Shown: one piece after another, positions 5,050-34,332 of the stretch | Layout: every line of letters begins with the position of its first letter | How positions within the stretch are numbered: the stretch's first letter is position 1 | Assembly (NCBI GenBank): GCA_025408445.1 | Contig: JANYIZ010000121.1 | Span: 1-38,744, forward strand | Direction of reading: 5' to 3' | Length of the DNA stretch: 38,744 nucleotides | Source of the DNA: Frigoribacterium sp. | Lineage (GTDB): Bacteria > Actinomycetota > Actinomycetes > Actinomycetales > Microbacteriaceae | Translations under genes and position numbers: made by a program | The notes under the pieces: generated by a model | Database searches by the model: none | The model's input: only the letters and a program-made list of their open reading frames with translations | Told to the model about the DNA's origin: nothing

Positions 5050-5319
5050 ATGCCTGAACGAACCGTCACTGTCGCCTCGAGAGTCGGACTTCACGCCCGT
5101 CCCGCATCGCTGTTCAGCCAGGCCGCGGCGAAGTGTGGGGTGCCCGTCACTCTCACGAGCGCTGGAGGCAAGACCGTCAACGCCGCGAGCATCCTCGGGG
5201 TGCTCTCGCTCGGCATCGGTCACGGTGAGGTCGTCACCATCAAGGCCGACGGCGATGATGCCGAGACCGCGCTTGACTCCCTCGCCGAGCTGCTGAACAC
5301 CGATCTCGACACAGCGTAG
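5050..5319 (+). CDS. ptsH: HPr phosphocarrier protein
   Basis: This 89-residue protein is the general PTS phosphocarrier between enzyme I and the EIIA proteins. The phosphorylated His15 lies in GLHARPAS. The regulatory serine region is KTVNAASILG, with Ser47 in the place of Ser46 of firmicute HPr. AAGGAA about six bases before 5050 decides the start; an ATG at 5020 in the same frame lacks such a site. It is the last gene of the PTS operon, 48 bases after the dehydrogenase gene. No ptsI is in the window, so this HPr must work with an enzyme I encoded elsewhere. Its last codons and stop are the first copy of a 15-base tandem repeat. Confidence 0.93.
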   Translation: MPERTVTVASRVGLHARPASLFSQAAAKCGVPVTLTSAGGKTVNAASILGVLSLGIGHGEVVTIKADGDDAETALDSLAELLNTDLDTA

Positions 5320-5369
5320 TTTCGCACAGCGTAATTTCGCACAGGCTAATTTCTCACAGCGTAATTTCG
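5310..5369 (+). repeat. 15-nt tandem repeat, 4 copies, covering the ptsH stop codon
   Basis: Four adjacent 15-base units occupy 5310-5324, 5325-5339, 5340-5354 and 5355-5369. The consensus is CACAGCGTAATTTCG. The first unit contains the end of ptsH and its TAG. Because 15 is a multiple of three, the later copies place TAA in the same frame at 5332, 5347 and 5362. A partial fifth unit (CACTG) follows and leads into the terminator hairpin. Confidence 0.9.
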
Positions 5370-5376
5370 CACTGAC

Positions 5377-5409
5377 GAAGAGGGTCCATCCCCAGGATGG
5401 ACCCTCTTC
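5377..5409 (+). terminator. Terminator hairpin of the PTS operon
   Basis: GAAGAGGGTCCATCC (5377-5391) and its exact reverse complement (5395-5409) form a 15-bp perfect stem with a three-base loop. There is no long T tract after it, which is common in high-GC actinobacteria. It ends the PTS operon just before the -10 box of the next gene. Confidence 0.85.
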
Positions 5410-5430
5410 TCTGCCGGGGATCACCTGTCC

Positions 5431-5436
5431 TAGGCT
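5431..5436 (+). promoter_or_regulatory. -10 hexamer of the DUF885 gene, leaderless arrangement
   Basis: TAGGCT ends six bases before the ATG at 5443, so transcription would begin at or next to the start codon. No Shine-Dalgarno sequence is needed in that case. The -35 region is not recognisable. Confidence 0.5.
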
Positions 5437-5442
5437 CGGGGG

Positions 5443-7128
5443 ATGACTGATGCAGACCTGGCCCACGAGGCTCGTCCCACCACACCCATCGATGCGATCG
5501 CCGAGACCTGGGTGGATACGGAGCTCGACCTGTTTCCCGAATACCGCGTGTATCTCGGGCGTGCGGGTCGGGAGGGCGAATACGCGGACTACTCACCCGA
5601 GGGCGCCGAGCGAGTAATCGCGGAGGTGAAAAAGGCCCTCGCGAGTATCCACGCGGCAACTGCCGTCGACGCGGTCGACGAGGTCACCAAAATGGATCTG
5701 AGTCGTGAGCTGCAGTTGCAGATCGACAAGCACGACGCCGATTTCGACCAGCGCGACCTCAACGTGATCGCGTCGGCCCCGCAGAGCCTTCGCGACATCT
5801 TCGATCTCATGCCGACCGACTCCGAAGAGGACTGGTCGCACGTCGCCACGCGCATGCGCAACCTTCCGGCGGCGATGGAGGGTTATATCCAGACCCTGCG
5901 CACCGGCATCGCGGCCGGCAACGTACCCGCCATCCGCCAGATTCGCGAAGTTATCGGCCAAGCGGCCAAGCAGGTGGCCGATACCGGCTTCTTCTTCCGC
6001 TTGGCCGAGGGGGCGAAGGCCGGTGCGGGCGAACTTCCGGAGTCGCTTCGGGGCGACCTCGCGGAGGCGGCGCGTGCCTCCGCCGGCGCGTATGCGACGC
6101 TGTCCGAGTTCCTCGAAAACGAGCTTTCCCCGCACGCACCGGAGCGGGATGCCGTCGGCCGCGAGATCTACACCCTCGCCTCACGCGACTTCCTCGGTGC
6201 CGTCGTCGACCTCGATGAGACCTACGAGTGGGGCATTGAGGAGTTGGCTCGCATGACGGCGGAGCAGGAATCGATCGCGCGAGAGATCAAGCCTGGCGCG
6301 ACTGTCGCAGAGGCGATCGAGTTCCTCGACAAGGACCCGAGCCGAAAGTTGCACGGTACAAACGCCCTACAGAAGTGGATGCAGGAAACAAGTGACCGCG
6401 CGGTCGATGAGCTCTCCCGAGTGCATTTCGACATCCCGGACGAGGTGAAACGACTCGAATGCATGATCGCGCCGACGCAGGAAGGGGGAATCTACTACAC
6501 GCCCCCCACCGACGATTTCTCGCGAGCGGGACGTATGTGGTGGAGCGTTCCGGAAGGCGTCACGGAATTCGACACCTGGCGCGAGCTCACCACCGTCTAT
6601 CACGAGGGCGTTCCCGGGCATCACCTCCAGATCGGGCAGGCCGTCTATAACAAAGCACTGCTCAATACCTGGCGTCGCAATGCCGGTACCTCCGGTCATG
6701 CCGAGGGCTGGGCGCTCTACGCTGAGCGCCTCATGGAGCAGCTCGGTTACCTCGACGACCCGGCGGATCGGCTGGGAATGCTCGACGGCCAGCGGATGCG
6801 GGCGGCGCGGGTGGTTCTGGATATCGGAGTTCACCTCGAAAAGCCACTTCCCGACCGCACCGGTCCCTGGACGGGAGAGTATGCTTTCGGATTTCTCGGC
6901 CGCAACGTCAACATGAGTCCGGAGTTCGTGCGCTTCGAGGTCAACCGTTATCTCGGCTGGCCGGGCCAGGCGCCCTCCTACAAAATCGGCCAGCGAATCT
7001 GGGAGCAGTTGCGCGACGAGTACGCGCGTCGAGAGGGAGCGGCCTTCGACATCCGTGCCTTTCATAAAAAGGCTCTCGACATCGGAGGCGTCGGGCTCGA
7101 CACTCTCAAATCGGCACTGCTCACGTAA
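5443..7128 (+). CDS. DUF885 family protein, putative metal-dependent hydrolase
   Basis: This 561-residue protein belongs to the DUF885 family, which is common in actinobacteria and related to zinc metallopeptidases. It contains HEGVPGHH at 387-394, an HExxxGHH-like metal site, and GHAEGWALYAERL from 418, where Glu421 could be the third ligand. The arrangement supports a peptidase or amidohydrolase role, but no substrate is known. No signal peptide or membrane segment is visible, so it is probably cytoplasmic. It stands between the PTS terminator and the DUF4166 gene, which starts on the base after its stop codon. The function within sugar metabolism, if any, is not apparent. Confidence 0.85.
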   Translation: MTDADLAHEARPTTPIDAIAETWVDTELDLFPEYRVYLGRAGREGEYADYSPEGAERVIAEVKKALASIHAATAVDAVDEVTKMDLSRELQLQIDKHDADFDQRDLNVIASAPQSLRDIFDLMPTDSEEDWSHVATRMRNLPAAMEGYIQTLRTGIAAGNVPAIRQIREVIGQAAKQVADTGFFFRLAEGAKAGAGELPESLRGDLAEAARASAGAYATLSEFLENELSPHAPERDAVGREIYTLASRDFLGAVVDLDETYEWGIEELARMTAEQESIAREIKPGATVAEAIEFLDKDPSRKLHGTNALQKWMQETSDRAVDELSRVHFDIPDEVKRLECMIAPTQEGGIYYTPPTDDFSRAGRMWWSVPEGVTEFDTWRELTTVYHEGVPGHHLQIGQAVYNKALLNTWRRNAGTSGHAEGWALYAERLMEQLGYLDDPADRLGMLDGQRMRAARVVLDIGVHLEKPLPDRTGPWTGEYAFGFLGRNVNMSPEFVRFEVNRYLGWPGQAPSYKIGQRIWEQLRDEYARREGAAFDIRAFHKKALDIGGVGLDTLKSALLT

Positions 7129-7746
7129 GTGCCCTCCCCATATGAGGAGGCCTTCGGACACTCGCTCGAGTCGCTTCATCCTCGCCTCCGATCGTATTTC
7201 GGGGAGATCCCGCGTGGCAGTCTCGGCGTGGGGTCGGGCATCTTCGATGTGGTCGGCACCCCGCGCCGGTGGCTGTGGCCGGCGCTCTGGGTGCTCGGCG
7301 CCCATGGCATCATGTTCGCCGCTTGGCAGCACGACGTCCCGTTCACCGTGGTCAACCGTCCGGTTGTGGATGCCAGGGGAAATATCGCCGTCGCCGCGGT
7401 ACGCACTTTCCGATTCGATCGCGGTGACCGCAGCATGGTCGACGCGATCACCGCGGAACGGGGTGGTCTCGTCGATCATCTCGGCCGGTCTCGTCGGCTG
7501 ATCTCGCGGTTCTCAGGGCACGTCGTCGACGGCGCTCTCACTCTGACCTCGACTGTTCTTGCAGTGCGGGTGGGGCGGGTGCGGGTGACGGTGCCGAGTA
7601 TCCTCGCACCGGTCGTGACACTGGTGGAGCACTTCGATGTGGCCGATGGCCGTCAGCATGTGGCCCTCGAGGTATGCGCGCCGCTCATCGGTAGGCTCTA
7701 TGAGTACTCCGGCTCGTTCACGTACAGGATCGAGGAAGCCACGTGA
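7129..7746 (+). CDS. DUF4166 domain-containing protein
   Basis: This 205-residue protein matches my recollection of the DUF4166 family, which has no known biochemical function. It starts at a GTG directly after the stop of the DUF885 gene and overlaps the next gene by four bases (GTGA). DUF4166 domains are often encoded beside, or fused to, NAD-dependent epimerase-like proteins, as seen here. A short hydrophobic stretch near residues 45-65 is visible but a membrane role is uncertain. The family call comes from general sequence character and context. Confidence 0.7.
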   Translation: MPSPYEEAFGHSLESLHPRLRSYFGEIPRGSLGVGSGIFDVVGTPRRWLWPALWVLGAHGIMFAAWQHDVPFTVVNRPVVDARGNIAVAAVRTFRFDRGDRSMVDAITAERGGLVDHLGRSRRLISRFSGHVVDGALTLTSTVLAVRVGRVRVTVPSILAPVVTLVEHFDVADGRQHVALEVCAPLIGRLYEYSGSFTYRIEEAT

Positions 7747-8717
7747 CCATTACCCCCAGCACCGACCGGATCGTGATCGCGGGGGCATCCGGCTTCATCG
7801 GGCAGTATCTCGCGCGGGAGTTCCGGAGACAGGGTTCCCGGGTACAGCTCATCGGCCGCCAGGGATCGGATGCGTCATGGGACGACCCGGCGGCGATCAC
7901 CGATCTCCTCGAGGGAGTGGACCTGCTGGTGAACCTCGCCGGTAAGAGCGTCAATTGTCGCTATACCGCGGCGAACCGTGCCGAGATATTGCGGTCGCGA
8001 GTCGACACGACCCGCCGGCTGGCCGAGGCCATCCGCGACTGTCGTGAGCCGCCCGCGCTCTGGATCAATTCGTCAACCGCAACGATCTACCGACATGCCG
8101 ACGACCGGCCCATGACGGAGTCGACCGGTGAGCTGGGCGACGGTTTCTCGGTCGGAATCGCCAAGGCGTGGGAAGTGGCCTTCTTTGCGGGCGTCCTTCC
8201 CGCCACTCGCCGGGTCGCTCTCCGGATGGCGATCGTGCTCGGCGATGGCAGCGCGCTCGTTCCCCTGATGGCTCTCGTCCGATTCGGACTCGGCGGTGCA
8301 CAGCTCGACGGTCCGTGGTTTTCGACGGCAGCTCGACGGGCCGCAGGAACGTTCCACGAGTTCCGGTCGCGGGGAGGCAGCCAGAAGTTCAGCTGGGTGC
8401 ATCTCGCCGACGTGCTCGGCGTCATCCGCTTCCTGCGGTCTCACCCCGAGATCTCGGGGGTGGTGAACGTAAGTTCTCCCACCCCTTCCGACAATCGCAC
8501 CGTGATGCAGACGCTGAGGGACGTGCTCGGGATGCCGTTCGGCCTCCCCGCGCCACGCTGGATGCTCGAACTGGGCACTGCAGCGATCCGCAGCGAGACC
8601 GAACTCGTGCTCAAGAGCCGCTGGGTACTCCCCGAACGGCTTATCAGTGCCGGATATGAATTCGAGTATCCCGAACTGCGTCCCGCCCTCCGGAACATCG
8701 TCGGCTCCCGTAGGTGA
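7743..8717 (+). CDS. TIGR01777 family epimerase-like oxidoreductase
   Basis: This 324-residue protein belongs to the extended short-chain dehydrogenase group TIGR01777 (YfcH-like). The nucleotide-binding motif GASGFIG is at 14-20. Further family segments are NLAGKSVNCRY and WINSSTATIYRH, the latter carrying the usual Tyr region of the epimerase fold. The substrate is unknown. It starts at a GTG inside the end of the DUF4166 gene, so the two are likely made together. A new promoter-like -10 follows it, so it probably ends the three-gene unit. Confidence 0.85.
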   Translation: MTITPSTDRIVIAGASGFIGQYLAREFRRQGSRVQLIGRQGSDASWDDPAAITDLLEGVDLLVNLAGKSVNCRYTAANRAEILRSRVDTTRRLAEAIRDCREPPALWINSSTATIYRHADDRPMTESTGELGDGFSVGIAKAWEVAFFAGVLPATRRVALRMAIVLGDGSALVPLMALVRFGLGGAQLDGPWFSTAARRAAGTFHEFRSRGGSQKFSWVHLADVLGVIRFLRSHPEISGVVNVSSPTPSDNRTVMQTLRDVLGMPFGLPAPRWMLELGTAAIRSETELVLKSRWVLPERLISAGYEFEYPELRPALRNIVGSRR

Positions 8718-8737
8718 CGTCCTTCGTTTGGGGGCGG

Positions 8738-8743
8738 TAGGCT
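8738..8743 (+). promoter_or_regulatory. Candidate -10 hexamer of rpsA
   Basis: TAGGCT lies 21 bases after the stop of the preceding gene and would give a start near 8750 and a 5' leader of about 117 bases. The same hexamer occurs before the DUF885 gene and before rapZ. No clear -35 is seen. Confidence 0.4.
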
Positions 8744-8757
8744 AGAGCGTCGCAAAC

Positions 8758-8838
8758 ATGCGGCACCTCACTCGCCTGTCCGCCGCGGGAACGATACGGA
8801 ACACTGATCCACACCAGCACCCCCGTGGCCGGCCCTAA
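8758..8838 (+). CDS. Possible 26-codon leader ORF upstream of rpsA
   Basis: An ATG soon after the predicted rpsA transcription start opens a 26-codon frame ending at TAA (8836-8838), 28 bases before rpsA. The peptide is rich in Arg, His and Pro. There is no good Shine-Dalgarno sequence before it. It may be a regulatory leader peptide or a chance ORF. Confidence 0.2.
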   Translation: MRHLTRLSAAGTIRNTDPHQHPRGRP

Positions 8839-8866
8839 AAAATGTCCATCCTGGAGCAACTACTAC

Positions 8867-10312
8867 ATGACAATCGTAACGACCGACAAGGCGCCAAAGC
8901 AGGTCGCAATCAATGACATCGGATCTGCTGAAGACTTTCTCGCCGCGGTCGAAAAGACTCTCAAATTCTTCAACGACGGAGACCTCATCGAGGGCACCGT
9001 CGTCAAGATCGATCGTGACGAGGTACTCCTCGACGTCGGTTACAAGACCGAGGGTGTAATCCCCTCCCGCGAACTCTCTATCAAGCACGATGTGGACCCC
9101 ACCGAGGTCGTCCAGGTCGGCGATGTGGTTGAAGCCCTCGTCCTCCAGAAGGAAGACAAAGAAGGTCGCCTCATCCTCTCCAAGAAGCGCGCCCAGTACG
9201 AGCGTGCGTGGGGCGATGTGGAGAAGATCAAGGACTCCGATGGCGTCGTCACCGGTTCTGTGATCGAGGTCGTCAAGGGTGGCCTCATCGTCGATATCGG
9301 ACTCCGCGGATTCCTACCGGCATCGCTCATCGAACTTCGCCGCGTTCGTGACCTCACGCCGTACCTCGGCCAGGAGATCGAGGCCAAAATCCTCGAGCTC
9401 GACAAGAACCGCAACAACGTTGTGCTCTCTCGCCGCGCCCTCCTCGAGCAGACCCAGTCCGAGAGCCGTACGACCTTCCTCAACAACCTCGCCAAGGGCC
9501 AGGTCCGCAAGGGTGTCGTGTCGTCGATCGTCAACTTCGGTGCGTTCGTTGACCTCGGCGGCGTCGACGGTCTCGTCCACGTCTCCGAGCTCAGCTGGAA
9601 GCACATCGAGCACGCGTCCGAGGTTGTCGAGGTCGGCCAGGAGGTCACCGTCGAGATCCTCGAGGTCGACCTCGAGCGTGAGCGTGTCTCGCTGTCGCTC
9701 AAGGCCACTCAAGAGGACCCCTGGCAGGTATTTGCCCGCACTCACGCCATCGGCCAGGTTGCACCCGGGAAGGTCACCAAGCTCGTTCCCTTCGGCGCGT
9801 TTGTTCGCGTCGCGGAGGGCATCGAGGGCCTCGTGCACATCTCGGAGCTGTCGGGCAAGCACGTCGAGCTCGCCGAGCAGGTTGTCTCGGTCGGCGACGA
9901 GGTGTTCGTCAAGGTCATCGACATCGACCTCGAGCGTCGTCGGATCTCCCTCTCGCTGAAGCAGGCGAACGAGGGCGTCGACCCCGAAGGCACCGAGTTC
10001 GACCCGGCACTCTACGGAATGCTCACTGAGTACGACGAGGCGGGCAACTACAAGTACCCCGACGGCTTCGACCCGGAGACCAACGAGTGGAAAGAGGGCT
10101 TTGAGTCACAGCGTGAGAAGTGGGAGCAGGACTATGCTGCGGCCCAGGCTCGCTGGGAAGCCCACAAGAAGCAGGTCGCGACCGCCGACGAGATCAGCGA
10201 CGCACCGGTGGCCGGAGGCTCCTCGTTCTCGAACGACGCCGACTCTGCCGGAACCCTGGCAGATGACGAAGCCCTCGCGGCGCTTCGTGAGAAGCTGAGC
10301 TCCAACTCCTAA
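8867..10312 (+). CDS. rpsA: 30S ribosomal protein S1
   Basis: This 481-residue protein binds mRNA at the 30S subunit. Four S1 RNA-binding domains are visible at about 39-107, 125-190, 211-279 and 296-365. Domains 3 and 4 are the most alike, sharing the pattern FGAFV, GLVH, SEL and RISLSLK. An acidic tail of about 115 residues follows. Four domains is the usual actinobacterial form, against six in E. coli. The ATG at 8867 is chosen because GGAG precedes it and the protein then starts as actinobacterial S1 does; a GTG at 8825 would add 14 unrelated residues. It is followed by its own terminator. Confidence 0.96.
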   Translation: MTIVTTDKAPKQVAINDIGSAEDFLAAVEKTLKFFNDGDLIEGTVVKIDRDEVLLDVGYKTEGVIPSRELSIKHDVDPTEVVQVGDVVEALVLQKEDKEGRLILSKKRAQYERAWGDVEKIKDSDGVVTGSVIEVVKGGLIVDIGLRGFLPASLIELRRVRDLTPYLGQEIEAKILELDKNRNNVVLSRRALLEQTQSESRTTFLNNLAKGQVRKGVVSSIVNFGAFVDLGGVDGLVHVSELSWKHIEHASEVVEVGQEVTVEILEVDLERERVSLSLKATQEDPWQVFARTHAIGQVAPGKVTKLVPFGAFVRVAEGIEGLVHISELSGKHVELAEQVVSVGDEVFVKVIDIDLERRRISLSLKQANEGVDPEGTEFDPALYGMLTEYDEAGNYKYPDGFDPETNEWKEGFESQREKWEQDYAAAQARWEAHKKQVATADEISDAPVAGGSSFSNDADSAGTLADDEALAALREKLSSNS

Positions 10313-10325
10313 GCAGGATGTCGTG

Positions 10326-10356
10326 AAACGGTCGGACCGCATAGGTCCGGCCGTTT
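10326..10356 (+). terminator. Terminator hairpin after rpsA
   Basis: AAACGGTCGGACC (10326-10338) pairs with GGTCCGGCCGTTT (10344-10356) through 13 positions with one G-T wobble and a five-base loop. The stem starts 14 bases after the rpsA stop and ends in TTT. Confidence 0.85.
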
Positions 10357-10411
10357 CCGCGTTAATCGCTGGCTGAGCATCCGTCGCCGGCCACTCGGGT
10401 TACGGTCCGGC

Positions 10412-10417
10412 TAGCAT
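10412..10417 (+). promoter_or_regulatory. -10 hexamer of coaE, leaderless arrangement
   Basis: TAGCAT ends seven bases before the GTG start at 10425. Transcription would start at the initiation codon, and no Shine-Dalgarno sequence is present in between. Confidence 0.5.
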
Positions 10418-10424
10418 TGCTCAC

Positions 10425-11036
10425 GTGTATCTCATCGGCCTCACGGGCGGCATAGCCTCGGGAAAAACAGTGGTTGCTCGCCGGCTTGAGGAGCTCGGGG
10501 CCACGAGGGTGGATGCCGACCAACTCGCTCGAGACGTCGTAGCCGTTGGCACTCCCGGTCTCGCGGCGATCACCGAACGGTTCGGTGTCGATGTGATCGC
10601 TGCAGATGGCACGCTGGACCGCGCCGCGCTTGGCGCCGTGATCTTCCGGGACCCTGATGCCCGCCTCGCCCTCAACGCCATTACGCATCCCGCCATCCGC
10701 GAGCTGAGTTCGCGCCTGTTCGCCGAAGCGTCCGATCGCGACCCCAACGCGGTCGTCGTGTACGACGTGCCGCTTCTCGCCGAGGCGTTGCGGGATCCCG
10801 GCTATCACCGGTTCGACCTCGTCGTCGTGGTCGATGCCAGCACCGAGATCCGCGTGCGCCGGCTCATGCAATTGCGGGGGCTCACTCGCGAGGAAGCGCT
10901 CCACCGGCTCAACTCCCAGGCGACCGACACCGAGCGGCTCGCCATCGCCGATGTGGTCGTCGATAGCAACGGAACGCTAGAGGAGACGATTGAACAGGCG
11001 GATGCCCTCTGGGCGGGGCTCGCGAGTCACCACTAA
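10425..11036 (+). CDS. coaE: Dephospho-CoA kinase
   Basis: This 203-residue P-loop kinase phosphorylates the 3'-hydroxyl of dephospho-CoA, the last step of coenzyme A synthesis. The Walker A loop is GLTGGIASGKT (5-15), and DADQLARDVV follows, a family hallmark. The protein ends soon after the core kinase domain and lacks the extra C-terminal GrpB-like domain of mycobacterial CoaE. It starts at GTG. coaE next to uvrB after rpsA is a common actinobacterial order. Confidence 0.93.
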   Translation: MYLIGLTGGIASGKTVVARRLEELGATRVDADQLARDVVAVGTPGLAAITERFGVDVIAADGTLDRAALGAVIFRDPDARLALNAITHPAIRELSSRLFAEASDRDPNAVVVYDVPLLAEALRDPGYHRFDLVVVVDASTEIRVRRLMQLRGLTREEALHRLNSQATDTERLAIADVVVDSNGTLEETIEQADALWAGLASHH

Positions 11037-11059
11037 ACGCATTCTGCCCACGGAGATAT

Positions 11060-11069
11060 CCGGTACCGG
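11060..11069. promoter_or_regulatory. Perfect 10-bp palindrome upstream of uvrB
   Basis: CCGGTACCGG is self-complementary and sits at the -35 position of the uvrB promoter, touching the damage-promoter motif that follows. It could be an operator or a chance palindrome in GC-rich DNA. Confidence 0.25.
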
Positions 11070-11091
11070 TGTCGGTGGCGCTGCCTAAGCT
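11069..11091 (+). promoter_or_regulatory. PafBC-type (RecA-NDp) DNA-damage promoter of uvrB
   Basis: The site reads GTGTCGGTG (11069-11077), eight bases, then TAAGCT (11086-11091). The published RecA-independent damage promoter of mycobacteria is tTGTCRGTG-N8-TAnnnT, later assigned to the activator PafBC. The match is complete apart from the weakly conserved first base, with exact spacing. The -10 ends six bases before the ATG, so the mRNA is probably leaderless. Confidence 0.8.
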
Positions 11092-11097
11092 TGAAAC

Positions 11098-13167
11098 ATG
11101 GAACCGACACGCTCAGTGCGCCCTTTCGAGGTCATCAGCGACTACATCCCGAGCGGCGACCAGCCGACGGCGATCGCGGAGCTGACCGCACGGATCAATG
11201 CAGGCGAAACCGATGTCGTTCTGCTCGGTGCCACCGGCACCGGCAAGTCGGCCACCACGGCCTGGCTCATCGAAGCGGTGCAGCGACCCACTCTCGTGCT
11301 TGCGCACAACAAGACTCTCGCTGCACAGCTCGCCAACGAATTCCGCGAGCTGATGCCGAACAACGCCGTGGAGTATTTCGTCTCGTACTACGACTACTAC
11401 CAGCCAGAGGCCTATGTGCCACAGACCGATACCTTCATTGAAAAGGACTCGTCGGTGAACGCCGAGGTCGAGCGGCTCAGGCACTCGACCACAAATTCAC
11501 TGCTCAGTCGCCGAGATGTGATCGTTGTCTCCACGGTGTCCTGCATCTACGGTCTCGGCTCTTCTGAGGAGTATCTGGATGCCATGTTGGCCCTCCAGGT
11601 CGGGATGAAGATCAACCGTGAAACGCTCATCCGCAAGTTCGTGTCGATGCAGTACCAGCGCAACGACGTGGACTTCTCGCGCGGCAACTTCCGGGTGCGC
11701 GGCGACACCATCGAGATCATCCCGATGTATGAGGAGCTCGCGATCCGCATCGAAATGTTCGGTGACGAGATTGAGGGTCTGTACAGCCTGCATCCGCTGA
11801 CCGGCGACGTCGTCAAAAAGCTCGATGCAGTGTCGGTGTTCCCCGGGTCACACTATGTGGCTGGCCAGGAACGCATGCACGCGGCGATCAAGACCATCAA
11901 GGTGGAGCTCGACGAGCGGCTGAAGCAACTCGAGCGAGAGGGCAAGCTCCTCGAGGCTCAGAGGCTCCGCATGCGCACGACCTTCGACATCGAAATGATG
12001 GAGCAGATCGGATTCTGCAGTGGCATCGAGAACTACTCTCGTCACATCGACCAGCGACAGCCGGGCGAGGCTCCGCACTGCCTGATCGACTACTTCCCCG
12101 ATGATTTTCTCGTCGTGATCGACGAGTCGCATGTGACCGTGCCACAGATCGGTGCGATGTATGAGGGGGATGCCTCGCGCAAACGCACGCTCGTTGACCA
12201 CGGTTTTCGCCTGCCGAGTGCGCTCGACAACCGTCCGCTCAAGTTCAACGAGTTTCTCGACCGGGTGGGCCAGAAGGTGTACCTCTCGGCCACGCCCGGG
12301 AAATATGAGATGGGTATCACCGACAGCGTTGTGGAGCAGATCATCCGCCCCACCGGTCTCATCGACCCGGAAATCGTGGTCAAACCCTCCAAGGGCCAGA
12401 TCGACGACCTGCTCGAGGAGATCCGCAAGCGCACCGCGGCTAACGAACGTGTACTTGTCACGACGCTCACCAAGAAAATGGCGGAGGAACTCACCGAATT
12501 TCTTGGCGAGGCTGGGGTGCGGGTGCGTTACCTGCACTCGGATGTCGACACCCTTCGCCGTGTCGAGCTGCTCACGGAACTCCGCCAGGGGGTCTACGAC
12601 GTGCTCGTCGGAATCAACCTGTTGCGAGAGGGTCTCGACCTCCCGGAGGTCTCCCTTGTGGCGATTCTCGATGCGGACAAGGAGGGCTTCCTGCGCTCCT
12701 CGACCTCCCTCATCCAGACCATCGGGCGCGCAGCGCGCAACGTCTCCGGTGCCGTGCACATGTATGCCGACGTGATGACCGACTCCATGAAGCTCGCAAT
12801 CTCGGAGACCACGCGTCGCCGAGAGTTGCAGGTCGCGTACAACCTCGAGCGTGGGGTCGATCCGCAGCCGCTTCGCAAGAAGATCGCCGACATCACCGAG
12901 TCGCTCAACCGCGAGGGCGCGGACACGGCGGCGCTGCTCTCCAACCGGGACGGCCGCAAGCGGTCTCCCACGCCGAACCTCAAGCGGCATGGGGGGCTGG
13001 CGGCCAGCGGGGCGAACGACCTCGAGTCGATCATCCGAGATCTCAACGACCAGATGTTGATGGCCGCGGGGGAGCTCAAGTTCGAGCTCGCCGGGAGGCT
13101 ACGCGATGAGGTATCGGATCTCAAGAAGGAGCTAAGGCAGATGGAAGCGGCCGGTCACATCTCCTGA
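11098..13167 (+). CDS. uvrB: Excinuclease ABC subunit B
   Basis: This 689-residue helicase-like protein verifies damage and loads UvrC in nucleotide excision repair. The Walker A motif GATGTGKS begins at residue 44. The beta-hairpin region that inserts between DNA strands begins with [12 protein letters not shown] from 97. The DEAD-type box VVIDESH starts at 339. A C-terminal UVR motif at about 640-675 ([22 protein letters not shown]) contacts UvrC. Length is typical. The ATG at 11098 lies six bases after a -10 box. uvrA and uvrC follow, so the full excinuclease is encoded within about 7 kb. Confidence 0.97.
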
Positions 13168-13250
13168 GCAGACCGGCGTGTGTGCTGCATCATCGCGAAG
13201 CCACACGGGAAGTCACTCCTCGCTACGCACAGAGCGAACGCGGGGCTTCA

Positions 13251-13272
13251 GTGTCGGTGGCCTGCATAGAAT
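13251..13272 (+). promoter_or_regulatory. PafBC-type (RecA-NDp) DNA-damage promoter of uvrA
   Basis: GTGTCGGTG (13251-13259) is followed by seven bases and TAGAAT (13267-13272). The 11-mer GTGTCGGTGGC is identical to that in the uvrB promoter. The spacer is one base shorter than the RecA-NDp consensus. The -10 ends seven bases before the GTG start at 13280, again a leaderless layout. Confidence 0.72.
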
Positions 13273-13279
13273 GTTAAGA

Positions 13280-16207: not shown

Positions 16208-16212
16208 CTGCC

Positions 16213-24069: not shown

Positions 24070-24080
24070 GCCCTCGCTTG

Positions 24081-24108: not shown

Positions 24109-24114
24109 GCCGGT

Positions 24115-24120: not shown

Positions 24121-24167
24121 AAACCGCGCCCGATAGACCTTATCGTCGCGCCCCAGAAAGGCTGTTC

Positions 24168-24419
24168 GTGGAAATACTTCAGGTCATCCTGCAGGTGGTA
24201 CTCGGCATCACGAGTCTCCTGCTGACTCTCCTCATCCTGCTTCACCGCGGTCGCGGCGGCGGGCTGTCCGACATGTTCGGCGGCGGAGTGACCAGCAACC
24301 TCGGTGCATCCGGAGTCGCCGAACGCAACCTCAACAGAATCACGTTGATCCTCGCGCTGATCTGGGTGTCATCCATTATCGTCCTTGGTCTGATCACCAA
24401 GTTCGACGTGACCGGCTAG
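24168..24419 (+). CDS. secG: Preprotein translocase subunit SecG
   Basis: This 83-residue membrane protein is the small auxiliary part of the SecYEG channel. It has two hydrophobic segments, about 2-25 and 56-78, joined by a Gly-rich cytoplasmic loop (RGRGGGLSDMFGGG), the typical SecG layout. It starts at GTG with AGAAAGG upstream. Its position behind tpiA is conserved in many actinobacteria and firmicutes. Confidence 0.94.
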   Translation: MEILQVILQVVLGITSLLLTLLILLHRGRGGGLSDMFGGGVTSNLGASGVAERNLNRITLILALIWVSSIIVLGLITKFDVTG

Positions 24420-24430
24420 GAGACGTACCT

Positions 24431-24796
24431 ATGGCTTCAGGTGGCAGTGCTATTCGTGGTTCTCGTGTCGGTGCGGGACCGATGGGGGAGCAGGACCGGG
24501 GTTTCCACGCCGAGCGACTGCAGGTCTTCTATTGGTGTGCCAACGGCCACGAGTTGAGCCCCCACTTCCTCGCAACGATCGAGCCGGAAGAGATTCCCAC
24601 GACGCTCGACTGCCCGAACTGCGGTCTTCCGGCTGGTCGTGACAAGGAGAATCCGCCGTCCGTCGTGAAGGTCGAACCGTACAAGACACACCTCGCCTAC
24701 GTGAAGGAGAGACGTACCGAAGAGGAAGCCGCGACACTCCTCGATGAAGCTCTTGAGCAGTTGCGCGCGCGTCGCGGACGCCTCACACCGCAGTAG
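24431..24796 (+). CDS. rbpA: RNA polymerase-binding protein RbpA
   Basis: This 121-residue actinobacterial protein binds RNA polymerase and group 1/2 sigma factors and stabilises the open promoter complex. It shows the N-terminal basic tail, the core domain with Cys residues in CANGHE and CPNCG that could bind zinc, and the C-terminal sigma-interaction helices (YVKERRTEEEAATLLDEAL). RbpA is confined to Actinobacteria, which supports the taxonomic call. It lies 11 bases after secG. Its last codons and stop are the first unit of a 17-base tandem repeat. Confidence 0.95.
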   Translation: MASGGSAIRGSRVGAGPMGEQDRGFHAERLQVFYWCANGHELSPHFLATIEPEEIPTTLDCPNCGLPAGRDKENPPSVVKVEPYKTHLAYVKERRTEEEAATLLDEALEQLRARRGRLTPQ

Positions 24797-24832
24797 CCCT
24801 CACGCCGCAGTAGCACTGACACCGCAGTGGAC
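24782..24832 (+). repeat. 17-nt tandem repeat, 3 copies, covering the rbpA stop codon
   Basis: Units at 24782-24798, 24799-24815 and 24816-24832 share the pattern CTCACRCCGCAGTAGCC. The first contains the final Pro-Gln codons and TAG of rbpA; the second repeats TAG; the third has TGG. With a 17-base period the copies fall in different frames. The array runs into the shared terminator. Confidence 0.85.
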
Positions 24833-24860
24833 CTGGCGCGACTAAGTCGGGCCAGGGTCC
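24829..24860. terminator. Bidirectional terminator between rbpA and pgl
   Basis: GGACCTGGCGCGACT and AGTCGGGCCAGGGTCC form a long stem with one bulged base, one mismatch and a loop of about two bases. It lies between two convergent operons and abuts the pgl stop codon at 24861, so it can serve both directions. Confidence 0.75.
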
Positions 24861-26602: not shown

Positions 26603-26624
26603 GAACGTTTCCAGACTGTGGTAG

Positions 26625-28166
26625 TCACGGGCGTCGCCAAACGCGCCCGTCGCGGGCAAGGAGTTCGTCGGCGGATGCCGGTCCCCAGGTTCCGGGGCGG
26701 TACTGCTCAGGCTGCCCCTGGGTGGCCCAATATTCCTCGATCGGGTCGAGGATCTTCCAGCTCAGTTCCACCTCTTGGTGGCGGGGGAACAGCGGTGGAT
26801 CACCGAGAAGCACGTCGAGAATCAGACGCTCGTAGGCTTCCGGGCTTGCTTCGGTGAACGCGTGCCCGTATCCGAAGTCCATGGTGACATCCCGCACCTG
26901 CATGCCGGCACCCGGCACCTTGGAGCCGAAGCGGATGGTGACACCCTCATCCGGCTGTACCCGAATCACCAGGGCATTCTGGCCAAGAGCAGAGGTCTGG
27001 CTCTCAGCGAAGAGGTTTTGCGGAGCGCGTTTGAAGACGACCGCGATCTCGGTGACCCGGCGGCCCAGCCGTTTGCCGGCACGGAGGTAGAACGGCACTC
27101 CCGCCCAGCGGCGAGTCCCGATGTCCAGGCGAATCGCGGCGAAGGTCTCGGTGAGCGACTTCGGGTTCATGCCGTCTTCCTCCAGGAATCCGACTACCTT
27201 CTCACCGCCCTGCCAGCCGCTTGCGTACTGGCCGCGGGCAGTGGAGTGAGAGAGATCTGTCGGCAGGTGGATGGCCGAAAGCACCTTCTCTTTTTCGGCA
27301 CGAAGATCCTTCGCGGCGAATGACACCGGCTCTTCCATCGCCGTCAGTGCGAGGAGCTGCAGAAGATGGTTCTGGATGACATCGCGTGCGGCGCCGATCC
27401 CGTCGTAGTAGCCCGCGCGACCGCCGACACCGATGTCCTCAGCCATGGTGATCTGAACGTGATCCACGTAGTTTGCGTTCCAGATCGGTTCGTACAGCTG
27501 ATTGGCGAAGCGCAGGGCCAGGATGTTCTGGACCGTCTCCTTGCCGAGGTAGTGGTCGATCCGGAAGACGCAGTCCGGCGGAAAAACCGACTCGACGACG
27601 TCGTTGAGCTCGCGTGCGGTTGCGAGGTCGCTGCCGAAGGGCTTCTCGATCACGACACGGCGCCATGCGCCATCCACCTCGTCGGCCAATCCGGAGCGAC
27701 GAAGCTGCTCAGTCACCTGGGGAAACGACTTCGGCGGGATCGAGAGGTAGAAGGCGTGGTTGCCCATCGTGCCGCGTGTCTTGTCGAGTTCCTCGAGCGT
27801 CTTCTTGAGCTCAGCGAATGCCTTGTCGTCGTCGAACTCACCCTGCACGAAGCGAATGCCCTCCGCGAGTTGCTTCCACACATTCTCGTCGAACGGCGTG
27901 CGTGCGTATTGTGCGACTGCGTCGTGCACCACCTGGGCGAAGTCCTGGTCGACCCAGTCACGACGGGCAAACCCGACCAGCGCGAAACCGGGCGGGAGCA
28001 GGCCCCGGTTAGCGAGGTCGTAGACCGCTGGCATCAGCTTCTTGCGGGCGAGGTCGCCCGTCACTCCGAAGATGATCAGGGCGCTCGGCCCGGCAATTCT
28101 GTTGAGACGGCGGTCGGAGGGCAACCTCAGGGGGTTGAACTCCGGCGTTATTTCCACCGGGGACAT
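26625..28166 (-). CDS. zwf: Glucose-6-phosphate 1-dehydrogenase
   Basis: This 513-residue enzyme oxidises glucose 6-phosphate and makes NADPH, the entry step of the pentose phosphate pathway. The coenzyme loop GVTGDLARKK is at 34-43. EKPFG (174-178) and the active-site signature RIDHYLGKE (202-210) contain the catalytic His and Lys. AGGAG lies five bases before the ATG. Length is typical. A possible separate -10 lies upstream, so it may be transcribed both from the operon and on its own. Confidence 0.97.
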   Translation of the reverse strand: MSPVEITPEFNPLRLPSDRRLNRIAGPSALIIFGVTGDLARKKLMPAVYDLANRGLLPPGFALVGFARRDWVDQDFAQVVHDAVAQYARTPFDENVWKQLAEGIRFVQGEFDDDKAFAELKKTLEELDKTRGTMGNHAFYLSIPPKSFPQVTEQLRRSGLADEVDGAWRRVVIEKPFGSDLATARELNDVVESVFPPDCVFRIDHYLGKETVQNILALRFANQLYEPIWNANYVDHVQITMAEDIGVGGRAGYYDGIGAARDVIQNHLLQLLALTAMEEPVSFAAKDLRAEKEKVLSAIHLPTDLSHSTARGQYASGWQGGEKVVGFLEEDGMNPKSLTETFAAIRLDIGTRRWAGVPFYLRAGKRLGRRVTEIAVVFKRAPQNLFAESQTSALGQNALVIRVQPDEGVTIRFGSKVPGAGMQVRDVTMDFGYGHAFTEASPEAYERLILDVLLGDPPLFPRHQEVELSWKILDPIEEYWATQGQPEQYRPGTWGPASADELLARDGRVWRRP

Positions 28167-28204
28167 TCGGCTCCTAGCGAGTTCGTGTCGGTTGGACGAT
28201 CAGT

Positions 28205-28210
28205 ATTTTA
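28205..28210 (-). promoter_or_regulatory. Candidate internal -10 hexamer before zwf
   Basis: On the minus strand TAAAAT lies 38 bases before the zwf ATG in the 57-base gap after pgi. This is the largest gap inside the operon, which would suit an internal promoter. No -35 is recognisable. Confidence 0.3.
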
Positions 28211-28223
28211 GGCACTCGGCGTA

Positions 28224-29822
28224 TTAGGCGATGGCACCGAAAAGCGTCGCAAGATTCTGTGCCGGATCCGTGAGCGTAAGGGTGAGCACCGGGCGACCGT
28301 GGTCGGCGAGCACACTCGCATCACCGGCTGCCTGCGCTTGGATGAGGTAGCCATAAGAGAACGGGCTGTCGGGAATCTCGAGGTCGGCCGGAGCCGTCGC
28401 CGTGATCTGAAGGAACACGCCGGTGGCGGGTCCACCCTTGTGGTACTGACCGGTCGAGTGCAGGAAGCGCGGTCCCCAGCCGAAGGTAACCGGGCGACCG
28501 GTCTTCTCGGCCAGTCGGTCGCGGAGCTTCGAGAGCTCGGGGTTCGCATGGCGGTCGACGTACGCCTGTACCGCGAGGTAGCCGTCCGGCCCGATGTGGC
28601 TGACAAGCGCGTTTATCGCGGCGGATACGGAATCCGCACCGGCGAGGAGCTCGGTCGATCCGCGCACCTCGATACCGTCCACAGTGAAGGCGGGTGCGAC
28701 GGGATCGGGGCGCGAGTCGAGCAGCGCGCGAGTCGCGATCTTGGCCGACTCGACATCCGGCTGATCGAAGGGGTCGATGCCGAGCAATCGACCGGCGACC
28801 GCGACAGCGTATTCCCAGACGAGCATCTGAGCACCGAGGGTACCGCTGATCTCGATCTCCCCGTCGCGCACTTCCTTGGTGGCGTGAGCGCTCTCGACGA
28901 GGCGCACGATCTGGACGTCGTCGAGGTTCTCGGAGAGCTCGGGGGAGTGAAGGTCGAGGACGACCGGAAGGAGCCCCTTTCCGCTCTTGCCGGTCGACTC
29001 GGCGATAAGCTGCTCGACCCAATCACCGAAGCCGACGATATAGGTACCGTCGGCGACGATCCCGATCTTGTCTTTTAGCGGAGAGGTACCGGCGATAGCG
29101 GCACCGAGAATGAGTCCAGGATTCTCCACCTGGTCGACCATGAGCTGCCCGGTCACCGCGGATGCTTCGGCGAGAAGCGCACGGATGTCCACGCCGGCGA
29201 GTCCGGACGGCACGAGGCCAAAGGCTGTCAGCGCAGAATAGCGACCGCCCACATTCGGATCGGCGTTGAACACGCGGTATCCGGCTGCTCGAGCCGAAAC
29301 GTCAAGCGGCGAACCCGGGTCGGTGACGACAACGATGCGTTCGGCCGGGTCGATACCGATGCCGTGAAAAGCCTCTTCGTAGGACTTGCGCTGGCTGGCC
29401 GTCTCGAGGGTTGAGCCCGACTTCGACGAGATGACGACAACGGTCGTCTCCAGGCGATCGGCGAGAGCGGCCAGGATCTGACCGGGGTCGGTCGAGTCGA
29501 GAATCGTGAGCTCGACGCCTGCAGTACGCGTGATCACCTCGGGGGCGAGCGAAGAACCGCCCATTCCGCCGAGCACCACATGATTTACCCCGGAGGCATG
29601 GAGCTTGTCGCGCAACGCGATGATGTCGTCGATCAGTGGCTCGGAGATGACGACTGCTTCGGTCCAGCCGAGGCGCCTTCCTGCCTCTGCCTCGGCATCC
29701 GCTCCCCAGAGAGTCGGATCCTGATCGGAAATTCGGGAGGCGACGAGGTCGCTCACCAGCTGCGGAACAATGCGATCAACGGCCTCTGCGGCGGCGCCGC
29801 TCACCGTGATATCGAAGCTCAT
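28224..29822 (-). CDS. pgi: Glucose-6-phosphate isomerase
   Basis: This 532-residue enzyme interconverts glucose 6-phosphate and fructose 6-phosphate. Two SIS-type phosphosugar subdomains are visible; GGMGGSS is at 85-91 and the phosphate loop SKSGST at 133-138. It is the actinobacterial form, which lies next to transaldolase and resembles the isomerase half of Tal-Pgi fusion proteins. It overlaps tal by four bases (ATGA), consistent with tight coupling and with that fusion seen in other bacteria. Confidence 0.93.
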
Positions 29823-30946
29823 TTGGCGACCTCACCATTCGCCGACTCGAGTGCTGCTGTCACGGTGTCGAGCAGTTCGTTCCACGACACGATGAACTTC
29901 TCCACTCCCTCTTTCTCGAGCAGCGCGGTGACCTCCTCGTAGGAGATTCCCAATGCGTCCAGTGCGTCGAGTACTGCATTAGCGTCGTCGTAATTGCCGG
30001 TCACCTGGTCACCGTCGATGACACCGTGGTCGAAGGTGGCCTCGAGGGTCTTCTCCGGCATGGTGTTGACGACGTTGGCCACGGCGAGCTCGGTCACATA
30101 CAGGGTGTCGGGTAGCGTCGGATCCTTCACGCCGGTGGATGCCCAGAGCGGGCGCTGCACGTGCGCTCCCGCGGCGAGGAGGCCCTTGGCCCGCTCGCTA
30201 TCGAAGGCCTGCTCAAAGACCTGGTATGCCAGTCGCGCATTCGCGATGCCGGCCTTGCTCTTGAGTGCAATCGCCTCTGGAGTGCCGATGGCATCGAGGC
30301 GGTTGTTGATCTCGGTGTCGACACGGGAGACGAAAAACGAAGCGACCGAGTGAATAGCCGAGAGGTCGTGCCCGGCGGCCTTCGCCTGCTCGAGACCGGT
30401 GAGGTAAGCGTTGATGACTTCCCGGTGGCGCTCGAGGCTGAAGATGAGCGTCACGTTGACGCTGATACCTGATCCGATAGTCTCGGTGATCGCCTCGAGA
30501 CCCTCGACCGTCGCGGGGATCTTGATCATGGCATTCGGACGGCCAACAGTTGCCCATAACTGCTTGGCTTGGGCTGAAGTTGCGACGGCATCGTGTGCGA
30601 AGCCGGGCTCCACCTCGATCGAGACGCGCCCGTCCTGTCCGCCGGTCGAATCGAAGATCGGACGGAAGATATCGCTCGCGTTTGCGACGTCAGTGGTAGT
30701 AATTTCGAAGACGGCCTCGGTGACGGTCTTGCTCGCGGCGGCGAGATGGGCCACCTGGACGTCGTAGGCCTCGCCCTTAGCGAGAGCGCTGGCAAAGATG
30801 GTCGGGTTTGTCGTGACACCGACGACGTTCCGCTCGGCGATCAGCTTCTGCAGTCCGCCGGAGTTGATCCTCTCGCGAGAGAGGTCGTCGAGCCAGATGC
30901 TGGTGCCGACGGCGGAGAGGGCGGCGGTGGGGGTGTTCTCAGTCAT
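29819..30946 (-). CDS. tal: Transaldolase
   Basis: This 375-residue enzyme moves a three-carbon unit between sugar phosphates in the non-oxidative pentose phosphate pathway. VTTNPTIF (44-51) and IKIPAT (141-146) are family signatures; Lys142 forms the Schiff base. The length matches the longer actinobacterial subfamily. AGGGAAA precedes the ATG. It follows tkt after 24 bases and is coupled to pgi by an overlap. Confidence 0.96.
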
Positions 30947-30970
30947 GTCTATTTCCCTAATTTTCGACGC

Positions 30971-33064
30971 CTAGACGGCGGCGATCGAGTCCTTGGCGGC
31001 GGAGATGGCGTGCTCGGTGGTTATTCCGAACTCACGGAACAGTGTCTTGTAGTCGGCGGATGCTCCGAAGTGTTCGATCGAGACGCTCCGGCCGGCATCG
31101 CCGACGTATCCGCGCCAGGTGAGGTCGCGGCCGGCCTCGATGGAGACCCTCGCTTTAACGCTCTTCGGAAGCACCGATTCGCGGTACTCAGCGGACTGCT
31201 CCTCGAACCATTCGAGGCACGGTGCGGAGACGACGCGGGCGTTGATGCCCTCGGCCTTGAGCTGCTCGCGGGCATCCACTGCGATCTGCACCTCGGACCC
31301 GGTGGCGATAAAGATGACATCCGGGGTGCCATTCGGTGCCTCCGCGAGCACATACGCGCCCTTTGCGACATACTTTGCCGCGGCGAAGGTCTCGCCACTG
31401 GCGACATCCTCGCCGCGCTCGAACACCGGGATGTTCTGGCGGGTCAGCGCGATACCCGCTGGCCCGTTGCGACGTTCAAGAATGGTCTTCCATGCCCATG
31501 CGGTCTCGTTCGCGTCGCCGGGTCGCACGATGTCGAGGCCAGGGATGACGCGGAGGGCGGCGAGCTGCTCGATTGGCTGGTGGGTCGGCCCGTCTTCGCC
31601 GAGCGCCACGGAGTCGTGCGTCCAGACGTAGATCGCCGGCGCCTTCATCAGCGCGGCGAGGCGCACCGCGGGCCGCATGTAGTCGCTGAAAATCAGGAAC
31701 GTTCCGCCGAACGGGCGGGTATTGCCGTGCAGCACGATGCCATTGAGAATCGCGCCCATGGCGTGCTCGCGGATGCCGAAGTGCAGGACCCGCCCGTACT
31801 TGTCGCCGGTCCACTCGTGGGTCGAGTGCTCGGCGGGCACGAAGGACCGCGAGCCTTCGATGGTGGTGTTGTTGGACTCGGCGAGGTCGGCGGAACCGCC
31901 CCACAGCTCCGGGATGATCGGGCCGAGAGCGTTGAGCACCTTGCCGGAAGCAGCACGCGTCGACACTTCCTTGCCCGCTTCGAACACGGGAAGGGCCTGT
32001 TCGACACCCTCGGGGAGGTCGCCGGAGAGGATGCGGTCGAGCAATACCTTCCGGTCAGGGTTTGCGGCGGCCCAGGCGTCGAACTGCACGTTCCACTGCG
32101 CATGCGCGGCCTTGCCGCGGTCCACGGCCTTGCGGGTGTGGGTGAGAACCGCCGGGTCGACGTCGAAAGTCTTCTCGGGATCGAAGCCGAGCACTTTCTT
32201 GACGGCGGCAAGTTCCTCGGCACCGAGGGCGGATCCGTGGATCTTGCCCGAGTTCTGCTTCTTCGGGCTCGGCCAGCCGATGATCGTCTTGAGGATGATC
32301 AGCGACGGCTTCGAGGTTTCACCCTTCGCCGCCTCGATCGCGTCGTTGAGCGCCTGGACATCTTCGACGTACTGGCCGGTCTTCTTCCAGTCCACGACCT
32401 GCACATGCCAGTGGTAGGCCTCATAACGGGCCTTCACGTCTTCGGTGAAGGCGATGTTCGTGTCGTCTTCGATGGAGATCTGGTTGCTGTCGTAGATCGC
32501 GATGAGGTTGCCGAGCTCCTGGTGGCCGGCGAGAGAGGACGCCTCGCTTGTCACGCCCTCCTGCATGTCACCATCGCCGGCGACCGCGTACACGTAGTGG
32601 TCGAATGGGCTGGCGCCTTCGGCTGCATCCGGGTCGAACAGTCCGCGCTCGAACCGCGACGCGTAGGCGAAGCCCACGGCAGAGGAGAGGCCCTGTCCGA
32701 GCGGACCGGTGGTGATCTCCACTCCGTCGGTGTGTCCGAACTCAGGGTGGCCGGGCGTCTTGGATCCCCAGGTGCGAAGTGCCTTGAGGTCATCGAGTTC
32801 GAGGCCGTACCCGCCGAAGTAGAACTGCACGTACTGGGTGAGAGAGGAGTGCCCCACCGAGAGGATGAAGCGGTCGCGCCCCATCCAGGTGCTGTCACTC
32901 GGGTCGCGGCGCATGACCTTCTGAAAAAGCAGGTAAGCCGCAGGAGCCAGGCTCATCGCGGTGCCCGGGTGCCCGTTCCCCACCTTCTCCACGGCATCCG
33001 CTGCCAGGATGCGGGCGGTGTCAACGGCGGTGTTGTCAATGGGTTCCCATTGGAGAGCTGCCAC
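30971..33064 (-). CDS. tkt: Transketolase
   Basis: This 697-residue thiamine-diphosphate enzyme moves two-carbon units between sugar phosphates. GHPG is at 31-34, the cofactor motif starts with GDGD at 163-166 (GDGDMQEGVTSEA), and the pyrimidine domain shows GIREHAMGAI. It starts at GTG; AGAAGGG lies ten bases before it. It is the first gene of the six-gene minus-strand operon that covers the oxidative and non-oxidative branches plus Pgi. Confidence 0.97.
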   Translation of the reverse strand: MAALQWEPIDNTAVDTARILAADAVEKVGNGHPGTAMSLAPAAYLLFQKVMRRDPSDSTWMGRDRFILSVGHSSLTQYVQFYFGGYGLELDDLKALRTWGSKTPGHPEFGHTDGVEITTGPLGQGLSSAVGFAYASRFERGLFDPDAAEGASPFDHYVYAVAGDGDMQEGVTSEASSLAGHQELGNLIAIYDSNQISIEDDTNIAFTEDVKARYEAYHWHVQVVDWKKTGQYVEDVQALNDAIEAAKGETSKPSLIILKTIIGWPSPKKQNSGKIHGSALGAEELAAVKKVLGFDPEKTFDVDPAVLTHTRKAVDRGKAAHAQWNVQFDAWAAANPDRKVLLDRILSGDLPEGVEQALPVFEAGKEVSTRAASGKVLNALGPIIPELWGGSADLAESNNTTIEGSRSFVPAEHSTHEWTGDKYGRVLHFGIREHAMGAILNGIVLHGNTRPFGGTFLIFSDYMRPAVRLAALMKAPAIYVWTHDSVALGEDGPTHQPIEQLAALRVIPGLDIVRPGDANETAWAWKTILERRNGPAGIALTRQNIPVFERGEDVASGETFAAAKYVAKGAYVLAEAPNGTPDVIFIATGSEVQIAVDAREQLKAEGINARVVSAPCLEWFEEQSAEYRESVLPKSVKARVSIEAGRDLTWRGYVGDAGRSVSIEHFGASADYKTLFREFGITTEHAISAAKDSIAAV

Positions 33065-33225
33065 GAGAATTCGACCCTTCTGTTGCGTACGATGTCAGTC
33101 CCGAGTGGGTCACACCGCCTGAGGTAATTACACGGGCTCACCTGACGACATCGGCAGTGCCGTGGGCTGCCCTACACGGCAACGAGGCTGACGGGGGCGA
33201 TGCTACGGCGTGCAAGTTACCCATA

Positions 33226-33231
33226 AGTATA
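33226..33231 (-). promoter_or_regulatory. Candidate -10 hexamer of the tkt operon
   Basis: On the minus strand TATACT would give a leader of about 155 bases before tkt. It lies in the most AT-rich part of the 259-base divergent gap between tkt and ctaB. No clear -35 is seen, and nothing else in the gap could be identified apart from the ctaB -10. Confidence 0.35.
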
Positions 33232-33308
33232 GAGAAAGCCGCGAGACGACGTTCCAGGAGGTCGTGCCACTCGGGAAGGAGCTGACAGGAGCTCCCAGCC
33301 GGGGCGCA

Positions 33309-33314
33309 TAGACT
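33309..33314 (+). promoter_or_regulatory. Candidate -10 hexamer of ctaB
   Basis: TAGACT ends nine bases before the GTG at 33324, consistent with a leaderless or near-leaderless mRNA from that codon. If translation instead begins at the ATG at 33348, the leader would be about 25 bases. Confidence 0.4.
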
Positions 33315-33323
33315 CTTTTCCGG

Positions 33324-34274
33324 GTGAGAACGGGTGTTAGAGGAGCAATGGACGTAGCGGTAGAGACTCGGCAGATTGAAGCGCGCATCGGCTTCGCCCG
33401 CAAGTCGAAGGCTTACTTTGCGCTCACCAAACCACGGGTCATTGAACTGCTTCTCGTGACGACGGCGCCCGTGATGATACTCGCGCAGGGCGGCATCCCG
33501 AATCTGTGGCTCGTGCTGTGGACGCTCGTCGGTGGTGCGCTCAGTGCGGGATCCGCCGGGGCCTTTAATTGTTACATTGACCGTGACATGGACCGGGTCA
33601 TGAAGCGCACGAGCAAGCGCCCGCTGGTCACCGGGGAACTCATGGATCATGAAGCGTTGGCTTTCGCGTGGGTTATTGGTGCGGCATCTATTGTTGTGCT
33701 GGGGCTGCTGGTCAACTGGCTCGCCGCTGTGCTTTCCCTCGTCGCCATCCTCTTCTACGTGCTCGTCTACACCCTGGTTCTCAAGCGACGAACCCCCCAG
33801 AACATCGTCTGGGGCGGTGCCGCTGGCTGTATGCCAGTACTCATCGGCTGGGCGGCGGTCACGGGTTCCCTTGGCTGGGCTCCGGTCATCCTGTTCGGCA
33901 TCGTGTTTCTGTGGACGCCGCCACACTACTGGCCGCTCTCGATGCGTTACCGGGCCGACTACGCGTCGGTTAACGTGCCGATGCTGGCTGTGGTGCGCGG
34001 TCGTACAGTGGTGGGTCTGCAGGTCGTTCTCTACGCCTGGGCGACCGTCGCATGCTCGCTTCTGCTGATCCCGGTTGCACACATGGGCATCCTGTACACG
34101 GTCGTTGCAGCTCTGGCGGGCGGATGGTTCGTGTTCGAGTCTCACCGCTTGTACTCCATGGCGATCCGACACGATACCGTCAAGCCGATGCGGGTGTTCC
34201 ACAGCTCGATCAGCTATCTCACTCTGCTCTTCCTCGCGGTGGGCATCGACCCGCTGCTCGCCGCACTGCGCTGA
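33324..34274 (+). CDS. ctaB: Protoheme IX farnesyltransferase (heme O synthase)
   Basis: This 316-residue membrane enzyme of the UbiA family adds a farnesyl group to heme B to make heme O for cytochrome oxidase. About eight or nine hydrophobic segments are visible. The first Asp-rich motif is N82CYID86RDMD90 followed by [10 protein letters not shown]; the second is in [14 protein letters not shown]. The start is uncertain: GTG at 33324 fits a leaderless mRNA, while ATG at 33348 has AGGAG only two bases away, too close to be efficient. ctaA follows, so both heme A steps are encoded together. Its stop codon is the first of a series of repeated CTGACCC units. Confidence 0.94.
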
Positions 34275-34332
34275 CCCACTGTTCTGACCCTTCCCCACTG
34301 ACCCTTCCCCACTGACCCTTCCATCCTGACCC
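34271..34332 (+). repeat. 14-nt tandem repeat around the ctaB stop codon
   Basis: CTGACCC occurs at 34271, 34284, 34298, 34312 and 34326, with steps of 13, 14, 14 and 14. The full unit is CTGACCCTTCCCCA. The TGA in the first unit is the ctaB stop; the TGA at 34299 is in the same frame. The array fills most of the gap before the ctaA ribosome-binding site. Confidence 0.88.

Follow-up and report, generated by a model that had tools for sequence, protein, structure and literature searches.

Tandem arrays at the ends of ptsH, rbpA and ctaB

The window, a stretch of 38,744 nucleotides of Frigoribacterium sp., is contig C121 from the incomplete genome G000 (3.05 Mb in 220 contigs). Tandem Repeats Finder (TRF) returned 25 rows for the window, and the three strongest arrays, with scores of 98, 79 and 75 and the next best at 48, are those found where ptsH, rbpA and ctaB end. 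An ungapped finder used with a score threshold of 12 recovered these three arrays (scores 27, 27 and 19) and a single further one, located inside a gene, with a score of 12. A search of the window with Rfam at gathering scores yielded no match. The three genes, their arrays and the inverted repeat described next are on the forward strand.

ptsH, the gene of HPr (5050–5319; Pfam PTS-HPr, E = 6.2e-28), ends with a TAG stop codon at 5317–5319. It is overlapped by an array at 5310–5372 composed of 4.2 copies of a 15-nt period (TRF score 98), the first unit of which holds the stop; the later copies carry TAA, TAA and TAA at the position of TAG. The array is followed by an inverted repeat at 5377–5409, recognized by a match of the sequence to its own opposite strand (91%), which is likely a shared terminator hairpin; a pattern-based terminator scan did not call it, though it is clear in the sequence. 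The ptsH array is thus placed between the stop and the hairpin. rbpA (24431–24796; Pfam RbpA, E = 1.6e-33; stop TAG at 24794–24796) carries an array at 24781–24828 with 2.8 copies of a 17-nt period (TRF score 75), again with the stop inside the first unit. The initial annotation had described this arrangement for all three genes; it is correct as such for ptsH and rbpA, and for ctaB only by way of a diverged copy. In ctaB, a gene of the UbiA family (33324–34274; Pfam UbiA, E = 1.3e-65; stop TGA at 34272–34274), the regular array, 3.6 copies of a 14-nt period at 34284–34333 (TRF score 79), begins 9 nt past the stop. The stop is held by the first of five CTGACCC motifs, within a diverged copy of 13 nt at 34271–34283, and since the next CTGACCC follows after 13 nt this copy is out of register. 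Downstream, the ctaA frame appears to begin with ATC at 34355, from where it is open, 3' of a GGA-rich stretch; the first listed ATG, GTG or TTG start is not encountered before 34436, and most relatives have ATC GTC or a similar start at this place.

Distribution of arrays relative to genes

The survey of the genus comprised 1,985,528 bases (1.99 Mb) with 1815 called genes from six of its 13 genomes, namely 826,599 bases out of the 3,049,879 that make up G000, the genome containing the window, and stretches of five relatives. Genes were called with a purpose-written codon-usage caller, and arrays with a period of 9–40 and a score of 14 or more were collected with a purpose-written ungapped tandem finder. 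The counts include a stretch common to G000 and G006, through which one array over a stop and one intergenic array are counted twice. In total, 34 arrays lie over a stop codon, 30 start within 15 nt past a stop, 97 are otherwise intergenic, 3 lie over a called start and 81 are inside genes. Comparison of the arrays over stops with an even spread across noncoding DNA had been set as the test beforehand: the 34 arrays make up 20.7% of the 164 noncoding or boundary arrays, compared with the 9.0% predicted by a uniform spread (p = 3.8e-6). The excess persists when the window is left out (32 of 161, p = 1.6e-5) and when all of G000 is left out (23 of 101, p = 6.8e-5). The comparison with called starts, also suggested by the initial annotation, gives 34 arrays versus 3, and the ratio of stops to starts is 45:3, 25:3 and 15:2 at score thresholds of 12, 16 and 20, with the proviso that the caller often shortens starts, such that arrays over true starts may be counted as intergenic.

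Because called starts are often cut short, coverage by distance is the safer control of the start side. Within the first 90 nt, arrays cover 3.9–6.9% on the stop side versus 0.7–2.6% on the start side. At larger distances the difference vanishes or is reversed, with 2.7% on the stop side and 4.1% on the start side at 120–180 nt. Convergent gaps are touched by 14.9 arrays per 10 kb, codirectional gaps by 5.7 and divergent gaps by 3.6, a four-fold difference between convergent and divergent gaps. The stop codon itself is not special, because arrays begin about equally often just past it: over all periods, 22 array starts lie in the 12 nt past the stop and 24 in the 12 nt that end with it. When only units of up to 18 nt are considered, the two stretches contain 15 and 23 starts, and the intervals overlap. 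The periods of the 81 in-gene arrays are without exception divisible by three; 19 of these arrays are in the last tenth of their gene and 16 within 60 nt of the stop.

The arrays do not arise by chance. In noncoding segments longer than 60 nt, 135 real arrays reached a score of 14, in contrast to none in each of five order-2 Markov simulations, so that head-to-tail copies exceed chance expectation, as in minisatellites or variable-number tandem repeats (VNTRs). An assembly artefact is unlikely, since arrays were found in all six sampled genomes, including those of 2 and 10 contigs.

Independent occurrence in different species

At the place of the ptsH array, none of the five relatives compared has an array. 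At the rbpA place, three relatives have none and G001 and G006 have a different one; at the ctaB place, three again have none, G001 has a weak, different array of 22 nt, and the array in G006, likewise weak (score 10), is shorter and related in sequence. The flanks at these places are 71–92% identical to those of the relatives. The orthologous place is present in the compared stretches for only 8 of the 63 noncoding arrays of G000; six of these eight lack the same array in the compared relatives, except for the weak related array at ctaB in G006, and the other two are identical in G006, within a stretch of at least 99.8% identity. The two identical arrays represent shared DNA and are no sign of long conservation. 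The comparison covered one genome per species, and the only pair shared between genomes lies in this stretch. The near-identity of the stretch itself (L092 and L221), while other regions of G000 and G006 differ by about 9–17%, is due either to recent transfer or to cross-binning of both assemblies.

Array formation is recurrent in the genus: among 142 stops in five relatives that are orthologous to those of window genes, 11 arrays (score of at least 10), seven of them over the stop, were located on 8 genes. A comparison of 49 stop-side units of up to 18 nt with others of equal period gave 77% for the best pair, apart from the shared L092/L221 stretch. The units are therefore unrelated and a mobile element is rejected, as the initial annotation had maintained for the three window arrays. 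Since orthologous genes mostly carry different arrays, sequence comparison points to repeated independent events. The process of recurrent duplication, with products gathering at gene ends, that had been proposed from the window alone is thus upheld by the pile-up at stops, the recurrence, and the differences between species in the genus sample.

rbpA seems to be a favored place for stop arrays. Elsewhere in the genus its stop carries arrays of 17 nt in G008 (scored on locus L103), 14 nt in G001 (score 14) and 16 nt in G006 (score 12). The locus L141, from a metagenome-assembled genome (MAG) titled Microthrixaceae, has a 17-nt array with a score of 22 at the rbpA stop, and in L131 (Cryobacterium sp. 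Y50) two 17-nt copies were seen by eye. Overall, arrays or doubled units occur at this stop in several lineages (L103, L141, L131, L238 and L215), often with a period near 17 nt and with differing sequences.

Array richness of the genus

For comparison outside the genus, 71 of 80 loci were used, all surrounding rbpA. The RbpA matches scoring best among named records are from Microbacteriaceae, and a few of the 71 loci are from MAGs titled outside this family. L103, apparently the genus member G008, and eight loci with a G+C content of 58% or less were dropped. The genus genomes contain 26–99 noncoding arrays per 100 kb as opposed to 11 in the comparison loci: 52 in G000, 99 in G004 and 85 in G001, together with 27 in G003, 41 in G006 and 35 in G010, the last three values each resting on 5–7 arrays. 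The location of all comparison loci around rbpA does not account for the difference, since the rbpA region of the genus alone has 60 arrays per 100 kb (17 arrays, of which nine are over stops, four near stops and four elsewhere), about five times as many as the comparison loci have there. The share of arrays over stops is similar, 34 of 164 in the genus and 3 of 13 in the comparison loci; therefore, the genus seems to differ in the rate at which arrays arise and not in their position.

Two candidate causes of the excess were considered. A NucS match above the cut-off was obtained in 11 of the 13 genus genomes, with none in G001 and G006. Loss of NucS is rejected as the cause, as G004, the genome densest in noncoding arrays, has NucS. 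A Ku match was obtained in nine of the 13 genomes and not in G000, G004, G006 and G012; the lack in G004 was noted in a genome rated 99% complete. End joining by Ku is likewise rejected, as the array-rich G001 has Ku. Across the 13 genomes, the presence of neither protein tracks array richness, and no cause of the genus excess was found.

Origin of the arrays

Units of up to 18 nt predominate (110 of the 164 noncoding or boundary arrays). Outside genes, the genus has 153 doubled units with no more than 10% mismatch, and the comparison loci have 22. Their commonest length in the genus is 15 nt (26 cases); lengths of 10, 11 and 12 nt, which include chance matches, account for 22, 23 and 19. Doubled units of at least 14 nt, taken from 38 noncoding arrays, are extended by a mean of 5.3 further matching bases versus 0.74 by chance, and only 5 of the 38 have no such bases versus an expected 53%. 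Extra matching bases are as expected of slippage between short direct repeats, or of a worn third copy, which would look alike.

Based on these observations, the arrays probably stem from independent short tandem duplications that are formed at a high rate in this genus through slipped mispairing and are then filtered by selection. Slipped mispairing between short direct repeats, which we infer as the cause, would yield short tandem duplications unusually often here. If the duplicated unit extends beyond the stop, the upstream gene would be left unchanged and the array would survive, whereas arrays inside genes, at starts or in promoters would mostly be removed. A stop in the first unit would be the only way in which a duplication can begin in coding sequence with the protein kept intact, and the anatomy of the arrays suggests that harmlessness is the reason for their position. 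The in-gene periods in multiples of three and the pile-up at gene ends fit selection that removes arrays damaging to proteins.

Tolerance alone meets with several difficulties. At distances above 120 nt, arrays are no scarcer on the start side than on the stop side; arrays recur at the rbpA stop in several lineages, beyond what would follow from an even distribution; and short units peak near the stop, also in convergent gaps, where promoters cannot interfere. The peak of short units would be explained if duplications of up to about 17 nt formed preferentially near stops through a coupling to transcriptional or translational termination, for instance when a stalled RNA polymerase meets replication. 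Replication-transcription conflicts cause small duplications. Starts of arrays with units of up to 18 nt number 51 in 42,698 available positions from −12 to +23 relative to the stop and 17 in 47,010 available positions from +24 to +83, which amounts to a 3.3-fold higher density near the stop; in convergent gaps, the density is three times higher (25 in 15,008 versus 7 in 12,758 positions). Longer units display no such peak (10 versus 17, p = 0.0008), and doubled units outside genes become abruptly rarer between 17 nt (11 cases) and 18 nt (3 cases). However, the cuts for unit size and distance were chosen after the data had been seen, and terminators just downstream could produce the drop. Short units also occur frequently at a distance from stops, 58 of the 110 such noncoding arrays being plain intergenic, and in convergent gaps the peak rate is reached again in the bin from +96 to +107 (3 in 1222, with a wide interval). 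We therefore regard a preferential formation near stops as rather unlikely, and slightly more doubtful still is the extended proposal that a size-limited duplication, up to about 17 nt, coupled to the termination of transcription or translation and active preferentially around stops, continually remodels the ends of genes and the C-terminal tails of proteins in the species of the genus. Nevertheless, given the 3.3-fold density of short units near the stop, tolerance may not be the full explanation.

Retention of the arrays for a function finds less in its favor. The initial annotation had also considered selection for repeated stop signals, and backup stop codons, whether in frame or covering the three frames, could be envisaged from ptsH, where an in-frame stop is retained in each of the three later copies despite the change of TAG to TAA. 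In the arrays over stops, five of which have no later stop copy to count, the later triplets are still a stop in 44 of 58 cases and identical to the first in 40 of 58, compared with 394 of 543 for the other triplets, and are thus not better conserved. Moreover, only 15 of the 34 periods are divisible by three and 30 arrays begin past the stop, which makes such selection extremely improbable. It is scarcely more probable that the arrays are retained as functional 3' elements that load Rho or serve as a spacer between stop and terminator. On the sense strand, the arrays of codirectional gaps show a slight excess of C (C-G skew 0.096 versus 0.021) and the ptsH array has the location of such a spacer, but the skew is weak, being positive in 39 of 64 stop-side arrays. 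In addition, the arrays vary between species, their units have no common sequence, and Rfam provided no match in the window.

Relation to known repeats

In the titles and abstract openings covered by a partial literature search, no description of tandem arrays over stop codons in bacteria was encountered. The arrays resemble bacterial minisatellites and VNTRs in being noncoding, head-to-tail, of few copies and partly diverged, but differ in that their units are mostly short and that they are gathered at gene ends. With the mycobacterial interspersed repetitive units (MIRUs) they have in common that tandem repeats lie between actinobacterial genes. MIRUs share a common unit, whereas the units here are shorter and unrelated, and among the 49 compared none recurs at many places as in a dispersed family. 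PMC2734929 describes MIRUs as repeats of 40–100 bp at 41 places in one genome. Microhomology-mediated small tandem duplications, for which a short identical sequence would be expected to flank the doubled segment on either side, may be similar in their short units and in the extra matching bases at the junction, although a worn third copy would mimic the latter; the arrays studied here differ in being older, with diverged copies, in being gathered at gene ends and in not having been caught during formation.

If the arrays are neutral traces, they reveal the places at which a compact genome tolerates small duplications, and the genus offers a natural case for finding the cause of small tandem duplications. 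If gene ends were instead a true mutational hotspot, duplication would be linked to termination. In either case, the duplication of gene ends supplies material from which new C-terminal tails can arise. Two long intergenic arrays of G000 are situated away from called stops, one of period 22 with about 7 copies (L096:13126–13278) and one of period 16 with about 6 copies (L045:13864–13966).
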